49,563 nt of DNA from Deltaproteobacteria bacterium (lineage in GTDB: Bacteria; Myxococcota_A; Polyangia; Haliangiales; Haliangiaceae), in the NCBI GenBank assembly GCA_013813765.1, contig JACCRC010000311.1, positions 1-49,563 on the forward strand. Direction: 5' to 3'. A model generated the notes under the pieces. It was not told the origin of the DNA and did not search any database. It saw only the letters and a list, made by a program, of their open reading frames with translations. Numbering within the stretch: the stretch's first letter is position 1; each line of letters opens with the position of its first letter. A program made the translations under genes and the position numbers. Of the stretch, positions 33,541-45,174 are shown one piece after another.

Positions 33541-33767
33541 ACCACCCCTACGCGTTCATCGCGGGAGAGCCGTCGCAGGGCTTCGAGCATCGCGATCGAG
33601 TCCTCGGGGAGCGGCTCGCGCGGTTGCTCCACTGTTCGCCCCTCGGCCTCAGCGCGATCGAGGATGCGATCCGCGGCCGCGCACCTCGACGCGAGCACGG
33701 CGAGTCGCTCCTCGGGCGTCGTGTGACGCCACACGGCGACCTCGGCTCTGATCTCGTCGTCGGTCAC
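33537..33767 (-). CDS. Third gene of the VapBC operon, unknown
   Basis: The 76-residue protein reads VTDDEIRAEVAVWRHTTPEE from GTG 33767 and is charged and helical, with several Arg- and Glu-rich stretches and no membrane segment. Its GTG overlaps the vapC stop by 4 bp, so it is translated with the toxin. A GTG inside a longer frame reaching to 33914 is the only start that gives a compact protein. No family is recognised. It could be a third partner of the toxin-antitoxin pair or a passenger gene. Confidence 0.55.
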   Translation of the reverse strand: MTDDEIRAEVAVWRHTTPEERLAVLASRCAAADRILDRAEAEGRTVEQPREPLPEDSIAMLEALRRLSRDERVGVV

Positions 33768-34174
33768 GCGAGGAGCTCGTGCTCGGCAGCAAACGCGCTG
33801 TAGGTCGGCCGAGCCCGCGCATCGAGCGTAAGCAGTGAAAGATCGGATTGCACGCACGTCGCCGCGATCAAGGCATCGTAGATCGCGCCACCCGCGAGCC
33901 CTCGTGTAGAACACTCTCCGACCAGCCTTCGCTGCTCGATCGCGGAGAGAGCAAACACTGGATGACCGTCGAAGCTACGCTCGAGGTACGAGGTCACCAC
34001 CTCGGGCGTCATCCGATGCGGAGCGGGAAGCCGGGTCAAGACCGAGTACGTCTCGATCAGGCAATGGGCCACCATCGCGTTCACGCGGCGGATCGCCGCG
34101 AAGGCACGCTCGTGCTGCCCGTGCCACGACGCAAACGCCGCCACGAGAACGCTGGTGTCAGGGGCGATCTTCAC
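33764..34174 (-). CDS. vapC: VapC-type PIN-domain toxin
   Basis: The 136-residue protein has the PIN-domain acidic set: Asp7 in KIAPDTSVLVAAF, Glu in HCLIETYSVLTRLP, Asp in AIYDALIAATCV and a final acidic in LLTLDARARPTY. VapC toxins are Mg2+-dependent RNases that cut tRNA or rRNA. It overlaps the upstream antitoxin gene by 4 bp and the downstream small gene by 4 bp, a tight operon. Confidence 0.92.
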   Translation of the reverse strand: MKIAPDTSVLVAAFASWHGQHERAFAAIRRVNAMVAHCLIETYSVLTRLPAPHRMTPEVVTSYLERSFDGHPVFALSAIEQRRLVGECSTRGLAGGAIYDALIAATCVQSDLSLLTLDARARPTYSAFAAEHELLA

Positions 34175-34416
34175 CGCCGCGAACCTTCGAGCACGGCACG
34201 GACCTCGTCCTGCGTCAGCGTCGGGAGTTTCTCCGACGGCTTCGCGACGAGCTGCTTGCCCTTGCGCACCAGGGTGACCTGGGTCGGCAGGGGCTCGAGC
34301 ACGAGCACGCCATCTCGCGATCGGATCTCGAGCTCTCGTCCCGGCGCGAGGCCTAGCTCGTCGCGAAGCACCTTCGGCACGACCACCCGTCCAGCAGAGT
34401 CGATAGCGGTCTTCAT
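34171..34416 (-). CDS. vapB: AbrB/VapB-type antitoxin
   Basis: The 81-residue protein opens with an AbrB/MazE swapped-hairpin DNA-binding domain: MKTAIDSAGRVVVPKVLRDE followed by LGLAPGRELEIRSRDGVLVL. The C-terminal part (about 50-81) is the likely toxin-binding tail. It starts at ATG 34416 from a TATCGT -10 ending 6 nt upstream. The -10 lies within an inverted repeat, as expected for autoregulation. Confidence 0.92.
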   Translation of the reverse strand: MKTAIDSAGRVVVPKVLRDELGLAPGRELEIRSRDGVLVLEPLPTQVTLVRKGKQLVAKPSEKLPTLTQDEVRAVLEGSRR

Positions 34417-38205: not shown

Positions 38206-40164
38206 ATGCCCCACCTTCTCAGCGCGGAAAGCTATGCGGCGTCATGGTGCGATCTCGTTCGAGACCGCGTCTCTGTGGTGGGCACTGCCAACGAAGCACA
38301 CGCAGTTGCTCTCCTCGACGCGCGCGAGGCGACGCTTCGTGCAGAGACTGCGTCGGAACGCGAGGACGTTCCGATGGCCACGCTTGCAAAGCGTCTCGGG
38401 CTACAGCCGGCGCAAGAACGAGCACTCTGGGTTCTGATCGCACACGAGATCGACGCATCGATACGAGGGCAGCTTCGCGCCCTCAACACGGAGGAGGTCT
38501 CCGACGTCTCCATGAGCACGCTCCGGCGTGTGGCGTACGGTGCCGCGGGCCTTGGTCGCTCGTGGATCGAGCTCGCTGCCGAAGCACCGCTGCGCCGCTT
38601 CGGTCTCATCGAGCGAACGGACGGCGCGGGCCTCGTGCCGGCCTACCGCCAGACGTTCTGCGCGAGTCAGTGCGTCCTCTCGATCGCCCACGGCCACTGG
38701 GGAATCGATCCCGAGCTGACGAGTATCGGAGCGATCGGGAACACAGCATGCTGCCGCCTCGACGACCTGATCTTCGACGCAGCCGTGGGTTCGAGGATCG
38801 CTACTGCCGTCCGGGATGGCGACATGGTCATCCTCTGCGGCCCGCTCGGCTCGGGCCGACGCTCGCTACTCTCCGAGATCGCTCGCGCTTCGGGACACGA
38901 CGTGTTCGTGGTCGACTCGCCGTCGCTCTCGCCCGATCGCACGATCCTCCGGCGCCAGCTACGCGCGGTGATGCGCGAAGCGCGCCTACTGGAGCTCACG
39001 CCGCTGTTTCGAGGTTTCGAGTCGTTCTTGCCATCCGATCAGCAGGAGCGACTCGCGATCTTCGAGGATGAAGTCTCCGGACTGGTCCTCGCCACGAGCA
39101 CGCGAGCGCCGGCGCGGCGCTGGAAACGCCAACCAGTCGTGATCGAAATGGCGGAGCTACGCGCGACTCAGCGAGCTGAGGTTTGGGCCCGGAGCCTCCC
39201 CGAGGCGACGAATCAGGACACGCAGATCCTGGCGACCATGTTCCCGCTGACGCCGGCCCTGGTGATGGCCGCGAGCGAGGCAGCTCGAAAGCTGGCGGGC
39301 GACGAGGCGCCAGAGGCATCGCACATCGAAGCGGGCGTCGGATCGGTGCTCGACAACCAGTTGTCCGGTCTCGCAACGCGAATCCGCGTCGAGCAGTCCT
39401 GGAAAGACTTCGTCCTGCCTGCCGAACAGATCGCCTCGCTCGTCGAGCTACTTGCTCGCATCCGTCGACGGTCGAAGGTGTACGAGGAATGGGGGTTCGG
39501 TTCGAAGCTCGGCAAGGGACTCGGCGTGGCTGCACTGTTCTCTGGTCCGCCAGGCACCGGCAAGACGATGGCGGCGGGCTTGATCGCAGCGGAGCTACGA
39601 GTGCCGCTGTACCAGATCGACCTCAGCAAGATCGTCTCCAAGTACATCGGCGAGACGGAGAAGAATCTCGGCGCGGTCTTCGACGCCGCAGAGGCGGGCC
39701 ACGCGATCCTCCTGTTCGACGAGGCGGACTCGATCTTCGGCAAGCGTACCGAGGTGAAGTCGAGCAACGACCGCTACGCCAATCAGGAGACAAACTACCT
39801 TTTGCAACGCCTCGAGACGTTCAAGGGCGTTTGCATCCTGACGACGAACCACGACGCTGGGATCGACGAGGCCTTCCGGCGACGGCTCTCCGTACACGTG
39901 AAGTTTCCAGTGCCGGAGGTGGATGAGCGCCGCAATCTGTGGCGCGCGCTGATTCCCGCCGACGCGCCCCTGGCTTCAGGGGTGACGTTCGACGCGCTCG
40001 CGGAGCGCTTCGAGATGTCCGGCGGCTACATCCGCAACGCGGTCCTGCGAGCGGCGTTTCTGGCTGCTGATCGCGACGTGCCGATCGATTCAACGCTGCT
40101 GCTGCAAGCAGCAACCACCGAGTACGAGGCGATGGGCAAGGTCATCGCTTCGACGACTCTCTAA
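38206..40164 (+). CDS. AAA+ ATPase with contractile-injection-system-type layout
   Basis: The 652-residue protein has an N-terminal helical/winged region (about 1-190) with LGLQPAQERALWVLIAHEI and APLRRFGLIER. A degenerate AAA module (about 200-330) has GPLGSGRR at 212-219 with Arg in place of the Walker A Lys and no Walker B acid pair. A canonical AAA+ module (about 440-600) follows with GPPGTGKT (Lys453), LLFDEAD (Asp505, Glu506), sensor LTTNHD and the arginines FRRRL. This order matches ATPases of extracellular contractile injection systems (Afp15/PVC15 type) as I remember them. No tube, sheath or baseplate gene is in the window, so a stand-alone role is equally possible. It forms an operon with the next gene, 21 bp downstream. 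Confidence 0.85.
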   Translation: MPHLLSAESYAASWCDLVRDRVSVVGTANEAHAVALLDAREATLRAETASEREDVPMATLAKRLGLQPAQERALWVLIAHEIDASIRGQLRALNTEEVSDVSMSTLRRVAYGAAGLGRSWIELAAEAPLRRFGLIERTDGAGLVPAYRQTFCASQCVLSIAHGHWGIDPELTSIGAIGNTACCRLDDLIFDAAVGSRIATAVRDGDMVILCGPLGSGRRSLLSEIARASGHDVFVVDSPSLSPDRTILRRQLRAVMREARLLELTPLFRGFESFLPSDQQERLAIFEDEVSGLVLATSTRAPARRWKRQPVVIEMAELRATQRAEVWARSLPEATNQDTQILATMFPLTPALVMAASEAARKLAGDEAPEASHIEAGVGSVLDNQLSGLATRIRVEQSWKDFVLPAEQIASLVELLARIRRRSKVYEEWGFGSKLGKGLGVAALFSGPPGTGKTMAAGLIAAELRVPLYQIDLSKIVSKYIGETEKNLGAVFDAAEAGHAILLFDEADSIFGKRTEVKSSNDRYANQETNYLLQRLETFKGVCILTTNHDAGIDEAFRRRLSVHVKFPVPEVDERRNLWRALIPADAPLASGVTFDALAERFEMSGGYIRNAVLRAAFLAADRDVPIDSTLLLQAATTEYEAMGKVIASTTL

Positions 40165-40185
40165 CTCCGACGCGAAAGCAACACC

Positions 40186-41700
40186 ATGGGCGATCATGAC
40201 AAGACCGAAGCACTCAAAGGCGCGACCGTTGACGTGAACGTGCGGCCGCTGCCGCCCGCACCGAAGAACGATCGACCGAAGCAACTTCCACGACGAGTTC
40301 CGACCGCAGGCGATCTGATCTCACCGTCTGCGGACGTCGACGCGCGAGGCATGCCTTCGAAGGTGGTGTACGCGATGGTCGAGAATCATGTCGATCTGAT
40401 TCACAGGCAGCTCGACGCTGCCTCCAAGTTGGCGATCTCTAGACTCGAAGACCCCCCGCCCGCCGCGGACCAGCCAATGGCCCTACGTGCGATGAAGTTT
40501 CTAGCTGAGACACTCGCAAGCCTGGCACTCGGACGTGTTGGCCAAGACTTGATCGGGATGGTGGGTAAGGGGTTCTCGAAGGAGACGACCGACGCAGTCA
40601 AGGACCAGCTGAAGTCACTGTCCGGCAAGGCCGCAACCGGCGCGGCGGGACTGCTCACCGCCGATCTCACAAAGAACGATTCAGGCGGTGCAGCGCCACC
40701 GCCGACCAATCCGGCGGCTGGATCACTGGTCGAGGAGTTCGCCGCGCGTTTCAAGCTCGCGCTCGACAGCACCCATGTGAGGGCTTTGGACAATCTTGCG
40801 ATCGCTGTTGGTTCCGTCGAAGAGACGACGCCTGACGAGATCCATCCACTTCTCGACGAGCTTCGTCGGTACTCCACCAGTTCGAACCTCGGTGCATGGC
40901 TTCAGGCGGAGATCGCGATCGGATGGCTGAACTTCAGCGCGGCGATATCGCTTGGCCGCAGGGCACCAGCACAGACGATCATGCCGGACGCCAACAAGCT
41001 CGGCGGCTCGCGCTCGGCTGCGTGGCGACAGCAACACGAAGGATTCATGGAGATCGACATCGATGTCCCCGATCGCATCGACGGAATGAACGGAGTTGCC
41101 GTCGGCTCGATCAGCATTCGAAGCGGCGGGCCCGGCGCTGCGCACATCTTGCGTGCCTACAGCGAGGAACCCGCTGGCCACCGCTCGCCGGCCGCCGCTG
41201 ATGCTGCCGCTGGGACTGCGGCGATCAACAAGGCTTTCAACGTCCCGGTCCCAGAGCTGCCCACCGGCTTGTCTCTGGCGACTCTGCCCGTGTACCGGCG
41301 ACTGTGGCTCGGCCGCAACCGTTCCGATCGCATGCCTGACATCGTCATCGGACCGGACCATCATGTGGAGGTCAACGAGAACAGCTCTCTACTGGCCGCG
41401 CTCGCGACGGGCGAGTCGGGCGGCTTTCTCGACATTCAAGGGCGCGGTCGCGAGGAAGAAACCAAGCAGGCCGCACTGGTGGAGCGGGCTCGGGAACCGG
41501 CACCAGATCTCACCGGTGTGGACGGCCCTCTTGGAGGGACACGACCCACGCCGCCGCGTGGCATGTCGGATCCCGAGCAGTTCCGGCTTGCCCGGTTTAG
41601 CGGCAACCTCGTCACGAGATCACGCGATGCCCGCTTGGGCGCGGAGAAGATCATCCGGGAGCTCCTCTCCAAGGCGACAACCTCGCAGATCAGCTCGTGA
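40186..41700 (+). CDS. Partner protein of the AAA+ ATPase, unknown family
   Basis: The 504-residue soluble protein has a charged Pro-rich N-terminus (VNVRPLPPAPKNDRPKQLPRR). A helical region (about 65-150) with an amphipathic segment MALRAMKFLAETLASLAL and KGFSKETTDAVKDQLK follows. The middle region (about 175-280) contains LLDELRRYSTSSNLGAWLQ, and the C-terminal part is beta-rich (EGFMEIDIDVPDRIDGMNGV). The tail is Pro/Arg-rich. No signal peptide, transmembrane segment or catalytic motif is clear. Its position next to an AAA+ ATPase suggests it is a substrate, adaptor or loaded cargo, but nothing in the sequence proves this. Base composition looks lower in GC than the neighbours. Confidence 0.75.
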   Translation: MGDHDKTEALKGATVDVNVRPLPPAPKNDRPKQLPRRVPTAGDLISPSADVDARGMPSKVVYAMVENHVDLIHRQLDAASKLAISRLEDPPPAADQPMALRAMKFLAETLASLALGRVGQDLIGMVGKGFSKETTDAVKDQLKSLSGKAATGAAGLLTADLTKNDSGGAAPPPTNPAAGSLVEEFAARFKLALDSTHVRALDNLAIAVGSVEETTPDEIHPLLDELRRYSTSSNLGAWLQAEIAIGWLNFSAAISLGRRAPAQTIMPDANKLGGSRSAAWRQQHEGFMEIDIDVPDRIDGMNGVAVGSISIRSGGPGAAHILRAYSEEPAGHRSPAAADAAAGTAAINKAFNVPVPELPTGLSLATLPVYRRLWLGRNRSDRMPDIVIGPDHHVEVNENSSLLAALATGESGGFLDIQGRGREEETKQAALVERAREPAPDLTGVDGPLGGTRPTPPRGMSDPEQFRLARFSGNLVTRSRDARLGAEKIIRELLSKATTSQISS

Positions 41701-41716
41701 GGAGATCCACTTGTCG

Positions 41717-41722
41717 TAGTGT
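41717..41722 (+). promoter_or_regulatory. -10 TAGTGT
   Basis: TAGTGT ends 10 nt before ATG 41733. It suggests the lipoprotein can be made independently of the ATPase operon. Confidence 0.4.
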
Positions 41723-41732
41723 TCGCATCACG

Positions 41733-42221
41733 ATGCAGCTGCACATCATGGGATTCGTCGCGGGCGCATTAGTTTGGGGCTGCAAGCCGCAGAAGGAAGA
41801 ACCAAGCCCGCCCCGTCTCCTGCTCGGCCAATACTCGCCGAAGACGAGCGAGCACATCTCGAAGACCTGCAAAGGGGCGCTCGGATGGTCCGGTGCGGAT
41901 TCCGTGACCTGCACCGTCGGCGACAAACCCTTGCAGTACTACCGGCTCGACTTCGCTCCGTCAGGCCACGTGAAGATGATCACGTTTGCAGGGCTCGACG
42001 ACCGCGGCGTCGAGGAGATCCTCGATCAATCGCTGGCCCCCTTGATTGACGCGGCTGTCATGCCCGCTCTGCGCGCTTCGATCGAGAAGCGCAACGTGTG
42101 GCCCGAACCCGTCCCTGGCATCCCATTTCTATCCACGTCCAGAGAAGATCGAGAGGTCAAGGGAGCTCGGCGGTCACTGCTGATGTGGTTCTATTCGCCG
42201 CCCGAGCGACGCAAAGAGTGA
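41733..42221 (+). CDS. Small lipoprotein of unknown function
   Basis: The 162-residue protein has a lipoprotein leader (MQLHIMGFVAGALVWGC, Cys17). The mature domain has two cysteines (SKTCKGALGW, SVTCTVGDKP) and mixed alpha-beta character. It ends in SLLMWFYSPPERRKE. It lies 32 bp after the ATPase partner gene in the same direction and may belong to that module. An immunity or anchoring role for the module is speculative. The family is not recognised. Confidence 0.7.
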   Translation: MQLHIMGFVAGALVWGCKPQKEEPSPPRLLLGQYSPKTSEHISKTCKGALGWSGADSVTCTVGDKPLQYYRLDFAPSGHVKMITFAGLDDRGVEEILDQSLAPLIDAAVMPALRASIEKRNVWPEPVPGIPFLSTSREDREVKGARRSLLMWFYSPPERRKE

Positions 42222-42290: not shown

Positions 42291-42707
42291 CTAGCGCTGG
42301 TCGAGAAGCAGGTCGAACGGGCGCGTCTTCCGCCAGCGGTAGACACCGAAGTCGGAGTCCAGGGTGAGGATCTTGCCCGTCCCGAGCTCGTCGGCGAGCT
42401 GGACCAGACAGGCATCCGCGAAGTCCATCGGCACGCGCGCGTACTTCTTCATCAGGCTGCGGATCGCCTTCGCGGACGACGTGAGTCGGAACGGCAGCTC
42501 GAACACGCCGGCGTCCACGTTCTCGAGAACGGCATCCGCCGCACCCGGCACGTCACGGAGCAGATAACAGACCTCGGCGATCACAGCCTCGCAGGTCGCC
42601 AGTGGTGCTGCGAGGTCGTCGAGCACCTCGACCGCGGCCTGATGATGGCGTTCGCTGCGGTCGAGCAGCGCCACGATCCAGCCCGTATCTGCGAGAACCG
42701 GAGTCAC
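42291..42707 (-). CDS. PIN-domain toxin (VapC type)
   Basis: The 138-residue protein has the PIN acidic residues: Asp7 in VLADTGWIVALLD, Glu in AVIAEVCYLL, Asp in MDFADACLVQLAD and Asp in ILTLDSDFGVYRW. It should be a ribonuclease toxin. The start overlaps the antitoxin stop by 4 bp. With its antitoxin it forms a second PIN-type module in this stretch. Its antitoxin is of the ribbon-helix-helix class rather than AbrB, so it is not a copy of the pair at 33764. Confidence 0.92.
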   Translation of the reverse strand: MTPVLADTGWIVALLDRSERHHQAAVEVLDDLAAPLATCEAVIAEVCYLLRDVPGAADAVLENVDAGVFELPFRLTSSAKAIRSLMKKYARVPMDFADACLVQLADELGTGKILTLDSDFGVYRWRKTRPFDLLLDQR

Positions 42708-42943
42708 GAGCGCCCAAACCCGGACAGGTGTGACTTGTTCGAACCGAGGTCCTCGTGCTTCGAGGCGAACTTGCCGACACCGCGTACGCGCCGGACGGGC
42801 GCGGGTAGCGACATCTGGCTGACGAGCTCCAGTCCCTTGCGGACGAGCTCGGAGTCGTTCATTCCGGTTTGGCGACGGAGGCGCGCCAGCAGCTTCTCCG
42901 TCTTCTCGTCGATCCGAGCCTGGACGATCCTCATGTCATACAT
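42704..42943 (-). CDS. Ribbon-helix-helix antitoxin (CopG type)
   Basis: From ATG 42943 the protein has 79 residues. The N-terminal strand and helices MRIVQARIDEKTEKLLARLR and GMNDSELVRKGLELV form a ribbon-helix-helix DNA-binding domain. The C-terminal tail GKFASKHEDLGSNKSHLSGF is the type of extension that wraps a PIN toxin. ATG 42934 is an equally possible start. The start region lies inside an inverted repeat that is the likely operator. Confidence 0.88.
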   Translation of the reverse strand: MYDMRIVQARIDEKTEKLLARLRRQTGMNDSELVRKGLELVSQMSLPAPVRRVRGVGKFASKHEDLGSNKSHLSGFGRS

Positions 42944-42960
42944 CTTGTCATGTGTATGAC
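42935..42960. promoter_or_regulatory. Operator with perfect 8-bp arms, GTCATACA-N10-TGTATGAC
   Basis: The two arms are exact inverted copies. A further TGTCAT occurs twice (42934-42939 and 42946-42951), giving closely spaced half sites of the sort that ribbon-helix-helix dimers bind side by side. Confidence 0.6.
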
Positions 42961-42978
42961 GTCGCGCAAACGAGCGGT

Positions 42979-43239
42979 TCACGCGCTCGCCCTCCTGCCG
43001 ACAGCGGTAGTGGGGGGAAGACCCGCCAGCGTGCGCACCGCCAGATGGTGATACCTAGGTCCGAGCCGACGGCCGCACAGGTCGACGCAGCGACCGACCG
43101 CACGGGCGACCTGCTCGGCCGCGGGCACGAGCTGTTCGCGCTCGAAACGTGTGCAGAGCTCGATGAAGGCACGATCGGAGTCAGTCATGCCTGGAGCGAC
43201 TGCACCGAATGCGCCGACGCCAAGGCCTGAAAGATCCAC
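42979..43239 (-). CDS. Short uncertain coding frame
   Basis: An 86-codon frame from GTG 43239 could encode a helical Arg-rich protein (TDSDRAFIELCTRFEREQL). No promoter or ribosome site is visible, and an overlapping frame on the other strand is equally long (42952-43230). I recognise neither. It is listed because it would otherwise be a gap of about 350 bp between the antitoxin and the methyltransferase. Confidence 0.3.
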   Translation of the reverse strand: MDLSGLGVGAFGAVAPGMTDSDRAFIELCTRFEREQLVPAAEQVARAVGRCVDLCGRRLGPRYHHLAVRTLAGLPPTTAVGRRASA

Positions 43240-44611: not shown

Positions 44612-44878
44612 ATGCCCGTGATCAAGCCGATTTCCGATCTCCGCAATCATGCGAAGGAGCTGTCGGCGATCTGCCACGACTCCGGCGAGCCCATCTTCAT
44701 CACGAAGAATGGCGAAGGCGACATGGTGCTGATGAGCCTCGCGGCGTACGAGCGTCTCCACTCACAGCTCGACCTCTACCGCCAGCTCGACGAGGCGGAG
44801 ATGGACGTACGCGCAGGAGATCGGGGGGCTGGGGTGGAGACGGTGCGACGTCGCCTGAAGCGCCGAGCCTCGCGGTGA
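44612..44878 (+). CDS. YefM/Phd-family antitoxin
   Basis: The 88-residue protein opens with PVIKPISDLRNHAKELSAIC and GEPIFITKNGEGDMVLMSL, the Phd/YefM DNA-binding fold. A C-terminal helical tail (YERLHSQLDLYRQLDEAE) binds the toxin. Its stop overlaps the toxin start by 4 bp. The promoter carries an ATCATGAT palindrome that may be its operator. Confidence 0.92.
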   Translation: MPVIKPISDLRNHAKELSAICHDSGEPIFITKNGEGDMVLMSLAAYERLHSQLDLYRQLDEAEMDVRAGDRGAGVETVRRRLKRRASR

Positions 44879-45174
44879 AGCGTACGGTTCGCGTCCTGCG
44901 ACGTGCCGAGCGAGACCTCCAGCAGATCTACGACGCGACAGCGAGGGAAACCCCGTCTCGAGCGGATGTCTTCATCGATCGGCTGCTGGACCGGATCGCG
45001 TCGCTCGCGAGCATGGCGCACCGTGGTGCGACGCCGAGGGATCCGACGCTCGCCATGCAGGGATTTCGCTTCCTCGTCGAGGAGCCGTACCTCGTCTTTT
45101 ACAAGGTGCTTCGAAGCCAGGTCAGGGTGTATCGCGTGCTCCACGGGCACCGCGCGTACCGCGACCTGCTGTAG
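44875..45174 (+). CDS. ParE/RelE-family toxin
   Basis: From GTG 44875 (overlapping the antitoxin stop) the 99-residue protein has the ParE/RelE plan: [19 protein letters not shown], a helix pair around [15 protein letters not shown] and the final strands [16 protein letters not shown] and [17 protein letters not shown]. ParE proteins poison gyrase, while RelE proteins cleave mRNA on ribosomes. The Phd-type antitoxin partner and the RVLHGHR ending fit ParE best. Confidence 0.9.

Follow-up and report, generated by a model that had tools for sequence, protein, structure and literature searches.

Three adjacent genes on a 49,563-nucleotide contig of a deltaproteobacterium of the family Haliangiaceae (JACCRC010000311.1, assembly GCA_013813765.1; the whole stretch is referred to below as the window) encode, in this order, an AAA+ ATPase, a partner protein and a lipoprotein. 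The ATPase belongs, with near certainty, to the Afp15/Pvc15 family of payload loaders of extracellular contractile injection systems (eCIS), and is a member of a lineage-specific expansion that is almost never found near the structural genes of such systems. As a whole, the trio is probably a payload cassette of an eCIS, one among many that are dispersed. The features to which the argument refers are the following.

38206..40164, + strand: Afp15/Pvc15-type two-module AAA+ ATPase, candidate eCIS payload loader, 652 amino acids (aa)
38311..38508, + strand: weak N-terminal winged-helix match (PF22977 WHD), aa 36-101, E 7e-4, under the Pfam cut-off
38839..38865, + strand: degenerate Walker A motif of the first AAA module (D1), GPLGSGRRS, aa 212-220, by motif reading
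39544..39567, + strand: intact Walker A motif of the second AAA module (D2), GPPGTGKT, aa 447-454, by motif reading
39706..39729, + strand: intact D2 Walker B motif, ILLFDEAD, aa 501-508, by motif reading
39841..39885, + strand: sensor-1 Asn and arginine fingers, TTNHDAGIDEAFRRR, aa 546-560, by motif reading
40186..41700, + strand: variable partner, candidate payload (or adaptor), 504 aa
40186..40353, + strand: putatively disordered N-terminus of the partner, candidate loading signal, aa 1-56, predicted local distance difference test score (pLDDT) mostly 30-49
40354..41010, + strand: helical domain of the partner common to congeners, aa 57-275, from sequence comparison and the structural model
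41697..42221, + strand: lipoprotein with lipobox LVWGC, likely GTG start sharing GTGA with the partner stop, or else ATG at 41733

An earlier reading, made from the sequence alone, had likened the ATPase to the Afp15/PVC15-type proteins, and sequence identity, tree position and the neighbourhoods of its relatives all bear this out. A search of plasmids matched the window ATPase to the eCIS ATPase of Serratia proteamaculans with 33% identity (E 2e-70, aa 127-624) across both AAA modules; the Serratia gene occupies the Afp15 position, flanked by a tape-measure gene and a DUF4255 gene. The same search matched an ATPase in an eCIS cluster of Nostoc that adjoins baseplate and DUF4157 genes. The set of 35 relatives retrieved from genomes of bacteria and archaea includes at least 12 loci from other phyla with sheath genes in the fetched flanks, nearly all of them together with tube genes, and several adjoin eCIS_core-type genes. 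Judged by the best named relatives alone, the organism itself probably belongs in or near Kofleriaceae. The best PHROG match of the window ATPase, phrog_10401, is also the top one for true eCIS ATPases, including that of Serratia. In a tree that includes no generic AAA+ outgroup, the window ATPase is nested among the eCIS-encoded ATPases; the dispersed copies are united in a single clade (support 0.88), whose sister group is a pair of ATPases inside eCIS clusters of relatives from the same family (0.97), and L011, L012, L041 and L084-L088 join the window ATPase in a subclade with full support. Grouping with a generic AAA+ family, which the sequence-only reading had named as refuting, did not occur, no such match rising above its cut-off. 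The models for CDC48, FtsH and the proteasome ATPase all score far under their cut-offs. A phage origin was also considered and rejected: coverage of the protein does not exceed about 40% in any of the matches listed, and most are to D2 only.

Motif reading of the open reading frame agrees with the proposal of a degenerate D1 and an intact D2. The D1 Walker A lysine is replaced by arginine, and LTPLFRGFESF, which lacks a DE pair, stands in place of the D1 Walker B motif; D2 is complete (GPPGTGKT, ILLFDEADS, TTNHD..RRR). On these motifs, D1 would be inactive and D2 active. The lysine-to-arginine change is common to nearly all dispersed paralogs, and in ATPases encoded within eCIS clusters D1 is likewise degenerate, in other spellings and with the DE pair missing from Walker B, so that the degeneracy is a family trait rather than decay. 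Pvc15 consists of an N domain, D1 and D2, of which D2 is the sole active ATPase, and all three are needed for payload loading (PMC11495950). The window ATPase has the same plan, with a putative N domain, a degenerate D1, an active-looking D2 and the Serratia identity spanning D1 and D2. It differs from the Pvc15/Afp15 proteins of lineage I eCIS in that it lies outside a structural operon, the usual, not strictly defining, location of the family, and in occurring in many copies per genome; moreover, the dispersed ATPases adjoin partners of differing families, and the N domain of the window protein is more diverged, with its weak WHD match. PF22977 scores above the cut-off in the Serratia protein in the Afp15 position (L048), the Nostoc protein (L046), L111 and L011, the closest paralog in the same genome.

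The scale of the expansion is best seen in copy number. The window's genome encodes at least 17 homologs of the ATPase, its own included (E <= 1e-90), and 131 are found across the 16 genomes of the genus. Contractile tube genes are present in all 16, yet of the 131 ATPases a single one is on the same contig as a tube gene, at a distance of 41 kb. Because links between the two might be lost where contigs are short, better-assembled relatives were checked as well: none of the 15 copies in G022 (180 contigs) lies on a tube-bearing contig, and one of the eight in G019 (80 contigs) lies 44 kb from a tube gene. Every genome searched that has the ATPases also has tube genes; G016 has neither.

The sequence-only reading had stated that tube and sheath genes are missing from the window, and searches of the whole contig for sheath, gp19 tube and eCIS_core likewise found none. 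The scan beyond the window that it had proposed turned up a conserved eCIS structural cluster elsewhere in the same genome (L032 1-7412, at G000:C562), composed of Pvc16_N, two sheaths, two tubes, CIS_tube, a GPD hub and Baseplate_J, with counterparts at L104, L105, L114 with L133, and L117. No Afp15-type ATPase was found in this cluster within the stretches read. In some relatives there is a second eCIS cluster that does contain an ATPase (L111, L112, L115). The tubes of the conserved cluster are of the gp19 type, and the first of them is followed by a protein of 1370-1670 aa with no Pfam match where scanned. Solitary tube-like (gp19) genes also occur among unrelated genes (L109 8131-9150 and L110 4176-5111, one of them a tandem fusion), and similar matches are present in most congeners.

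Near the window-like ATPases, one gene order recurs: a small helical protein, a partner, a lipoprotein or membrane-anchored protein, and the ATPase. The third gene usually overlaps that of the partner by 4 bp. The partners are 430-740 aa long, belong to several unrelated families and are far more variable than the ATPase. The small protein, of about 130-215 aa, is the first gene in many cassettes and combines a disordered N-terminus carrying an IF motif with a confidently predicted helical bundle and a conserved ADARRR helix at the end (e.g., L091 7420-7815, L090 4012-4467, L041 1350-1997); it has no match in Pfam or the PDB, and in L087 it forms a fusion with the ATPase. It may be an adaptor common to the cassettes.

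The cassettes are connected to known eCIS cargo through eCIS_core (DUF4157), the domain of a described class of eCIS toxins (Geller et al. 2021, PMC8213781). Some of the paralogous ATPases adjoin eCIS_core proteins: for 16 of the 131, an eCIS_core gene is no more than 10 kb away, in the window's own genome at L026 and L019 and also at the paralog L023. In addition, one partner family of the window's subclade recurs as the C-terminal part of a protein in G022, with 46% identity over 560 aa for the L085 partner; this G022 protein has eCIS_core at its start (E 1.9e-18) and adjoins an ATPase of its own. The window partner differs from these toxins in having neither eCIS_core nor a known toxin domain. 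Paralogous proteins of 1245-1300 aa are also encoded near ATPase copies (L015 2945-6847 and L013 2039-5776), with a sub-threshold C-terminal match to the ATLF-type metallopeptidase domain.

The partner in the window has few homologs and is mostly helical wherever its model is confident at all. Its N-terminus stands at the 96th percentile of disorder propensity, which is suggestive only, the whole model being of low confidence; as a class, cassette partners have N-termini of higher disorder propensity than other proteins (p 4e-5). The signal peptides of eCIS payloads have likewise been described as disordered N-termini (PMC11495950). The possibility that this family never co-occurs with the ATPase, named beforehand as refuting, did not materialize: the two stand together in the G006 cassette (L041), and at a second locus of the window's own genome (L140 7650-9397, at G000:C36) a short partner homolog overlaps the gene of a small cassette protein and adjoins a broken ATPase remnant. 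Since there are such cassettes in G006 and at C36 and yet also short versions that stand alone, the association of partner and ATPase is real but not obligatory. Counterparts of the G006 locus without the ATPase in G001 and G010 (L042, L043) suggest insertion or loss. The G006 locus (L041 1-10578) also contains a peptidase-like gene, a short partner homolog and carbohydrate-enzyme-like genes.

The lipoprotein was identified as such by the sequence-only reading, and its lipobox (LVWGC, with the Cys at 41781-41783) supports this; the length of 162 aa given there, from the ATG at 41733, is less likely than 174 aa from the GTG at 41697. The protein has no match in Pfam, NCBIfam, PHROG or PADLOC (best E 0.25), and no homology to the lipoproteins of other cassettes is detectable. 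What is common to the cassettes is the arrangement: by a home-made lipobox rule, 11 of 15 cassette small genes carry a lipobox compared with 9.5% of background genes of 100-400 aa, and in 12 of 15 the gene overlaps that of the partner by 1 or 4 bp, compared with 11% of same-strand neighbours (p about 1e-9 for lipobox and overlap). Some of the cassette lipoproteins resemble the formylglycine-generating enzyme (FGE) (L089 10010-11095, PF03781 E 1e-28; L027 5953-6765; L097 4273-5025), and others resemble HEAT or Sel1 repeats by eye.

Under the reading that we favour, D2 would drive an ATPase hexamer that engages the partner at its putatively disordered N-terminus, either unfolds or holds the protein and feeds it into the tube of a syringe encoded elsewhere, each payload bringing its own motor. 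The partner would thus be the payload, and the coupled lipoprotein would serve either as a cognate immunity protein that protects the producer or as a tether that keeps the payload complex attached to the envelope. For the window ATPase, the syringe served would presumably be the one at C562. That the trio is a dispersed cassette we consider likely; the full mechanism of loader, payload and lipoprotein we put at somewhat better than even.

Several observations weigh against this reading. The sequence-only reading had noted a 504-residue partner 21 bp downstream of the ATPase with no recognised domain, and this is indeed the case: there is no Pfam, NCBIfam, PHROG, PADLOC or PDB match and no toxin motif, and the predicted fold (mean pLDDT 47, from a five-sequence alignment) has no PDB match at E <= 0.001 either. 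In particular, eCIS_core/DUF4157 and known toxin domains were looked for in the partner and none was found; the cassette as a whole has no eCIS_core domain. A search of the window with a hidden Markov model of the small helical protein, which sister cassettes have, came back blank, and short partner homologs stand alone, with no ATPase, in four congeners. The cassette loci were chosen by their likeness to the window and are mutually related, so that the p-values for lipobox and overlap overstate independence, although the effect is large. Finally, the physical use of a distant syringe is inferred from the genes.

Three options had been offered for the trio at the outset, namely a relic, an orphan effector-loading unit and a separate remodelling machine, of which the loading unit fits best. 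The third would have an expanded clade of ATPases, derived from an eCIS loader, re-used as an eCIS-independent machine acting on partner and lipoprotein, for instance at the envelope. It agrees with the position of the ATPase copies apart from structural genes in nearly every case examined, with the partial co-variation of partner and lipoprotein families (homologous membrane proteins in L090 and L091; FGE-type lipoproteins in L089, L027 and L097) and with the lack of eCIS_core in most partners. We nevertheless regard it as unlikely, if well short of negligible, given the 16 ATPase copies near eCIS_core genes, the partner family in common with an eCIS_core protein, and the distribution of tubes, which are found in all ATPase-bearing genomes searched and are missing along with the ATPase from G016. 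A relic of a decaying eCIS locus is very improbable: the window has no structural genes and the same genome has a decayed ATPase copy at C36, but the frames are open, the D2 motifs intact, a related cassette exists in a congener (L041) and many copies are maintained.

Within an eCIS, the partner might also act as a loader adaptor or scaffold, the true payload being the lipoprotein or a protein encoded elsewhere. The helical character of its confident parts, the lack of an enzymatic signature and the ATPase-less short homologs are compatible with such a role, which we nonetheless hold to be distinctly improbable, since the partners vary far more than the ATPase does; a better candidate for the adaptor is the small helical protein, which is more constant and in one case is fused to the ATPase. 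An anti-phage system akin to IetAS is hardly to be entertained. The IteA/IetA models do match D2 and are the best NCBIfam and PADLOC matches of the protein, but the score is 95.4 bits against a cut-off of 510 and covers the AAA domain only; genuine eCIS ATPases give an equally weak match, and the partner has no counterpart in PADLOC.

As to the setting of the trio, the lower GC content that had been noticed is a mild dip: 0.63-0.66 at 35-43 kb compared with about 0.67-0.70 over most of the window, with comparable dips at 19-22 kb and 45-48 kb. Pairs resembling toxin-antitoxin modules by eye lie at 33764-34416, 42291-42982 and 44612-45174 of the window, one of them directly 3' of the lipoprotein gene on the opposite strand.

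What is new in the favoured reading, that of dispersed payload cassettes, is the dispersed and multiplied architecture, as judged against the open literature only: the portions of eCIS surveys and reviews reached by keyword search of that literature do not discuss dispersed loaders, and nothing was found there on eCIS in Kofleriaceae or Haliangium. In type VI secretion, orphan or auxiliary effector islands offer a parallel: cargo genes are scattered off the main cluster there, and a coupled lipoprotein could be an immunity protein. In those islands, it is a spike or tube protein that travels as the constant gene; here, it is the loader ATPase.

The choice and loading of eCIS cargo is an open question for research on microbial antagonism and on protein delivery. 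It is a tentative proposal, just short of an even call, that a single syringe is served by a dozen or more scattered cassettes, each with its own Pvc15-type motor, a private payload from a family not yet described, a translationally coupled lipoprotein and, in many cases, a small helical protein. If true, the specificity of loading would be encoded by a motor that travels with its cargo, and the cassettes would be natural matched pairs of motor and cargo on which specificity could be directly tested. Furthermore, if each payload moves together with its loader and coupled lipoprotein, apart from the genes of the syringe, most of the cargo in such genomes would escape any search confined to eCIS operons, and the ATPase would become a bait gene for new payload families.

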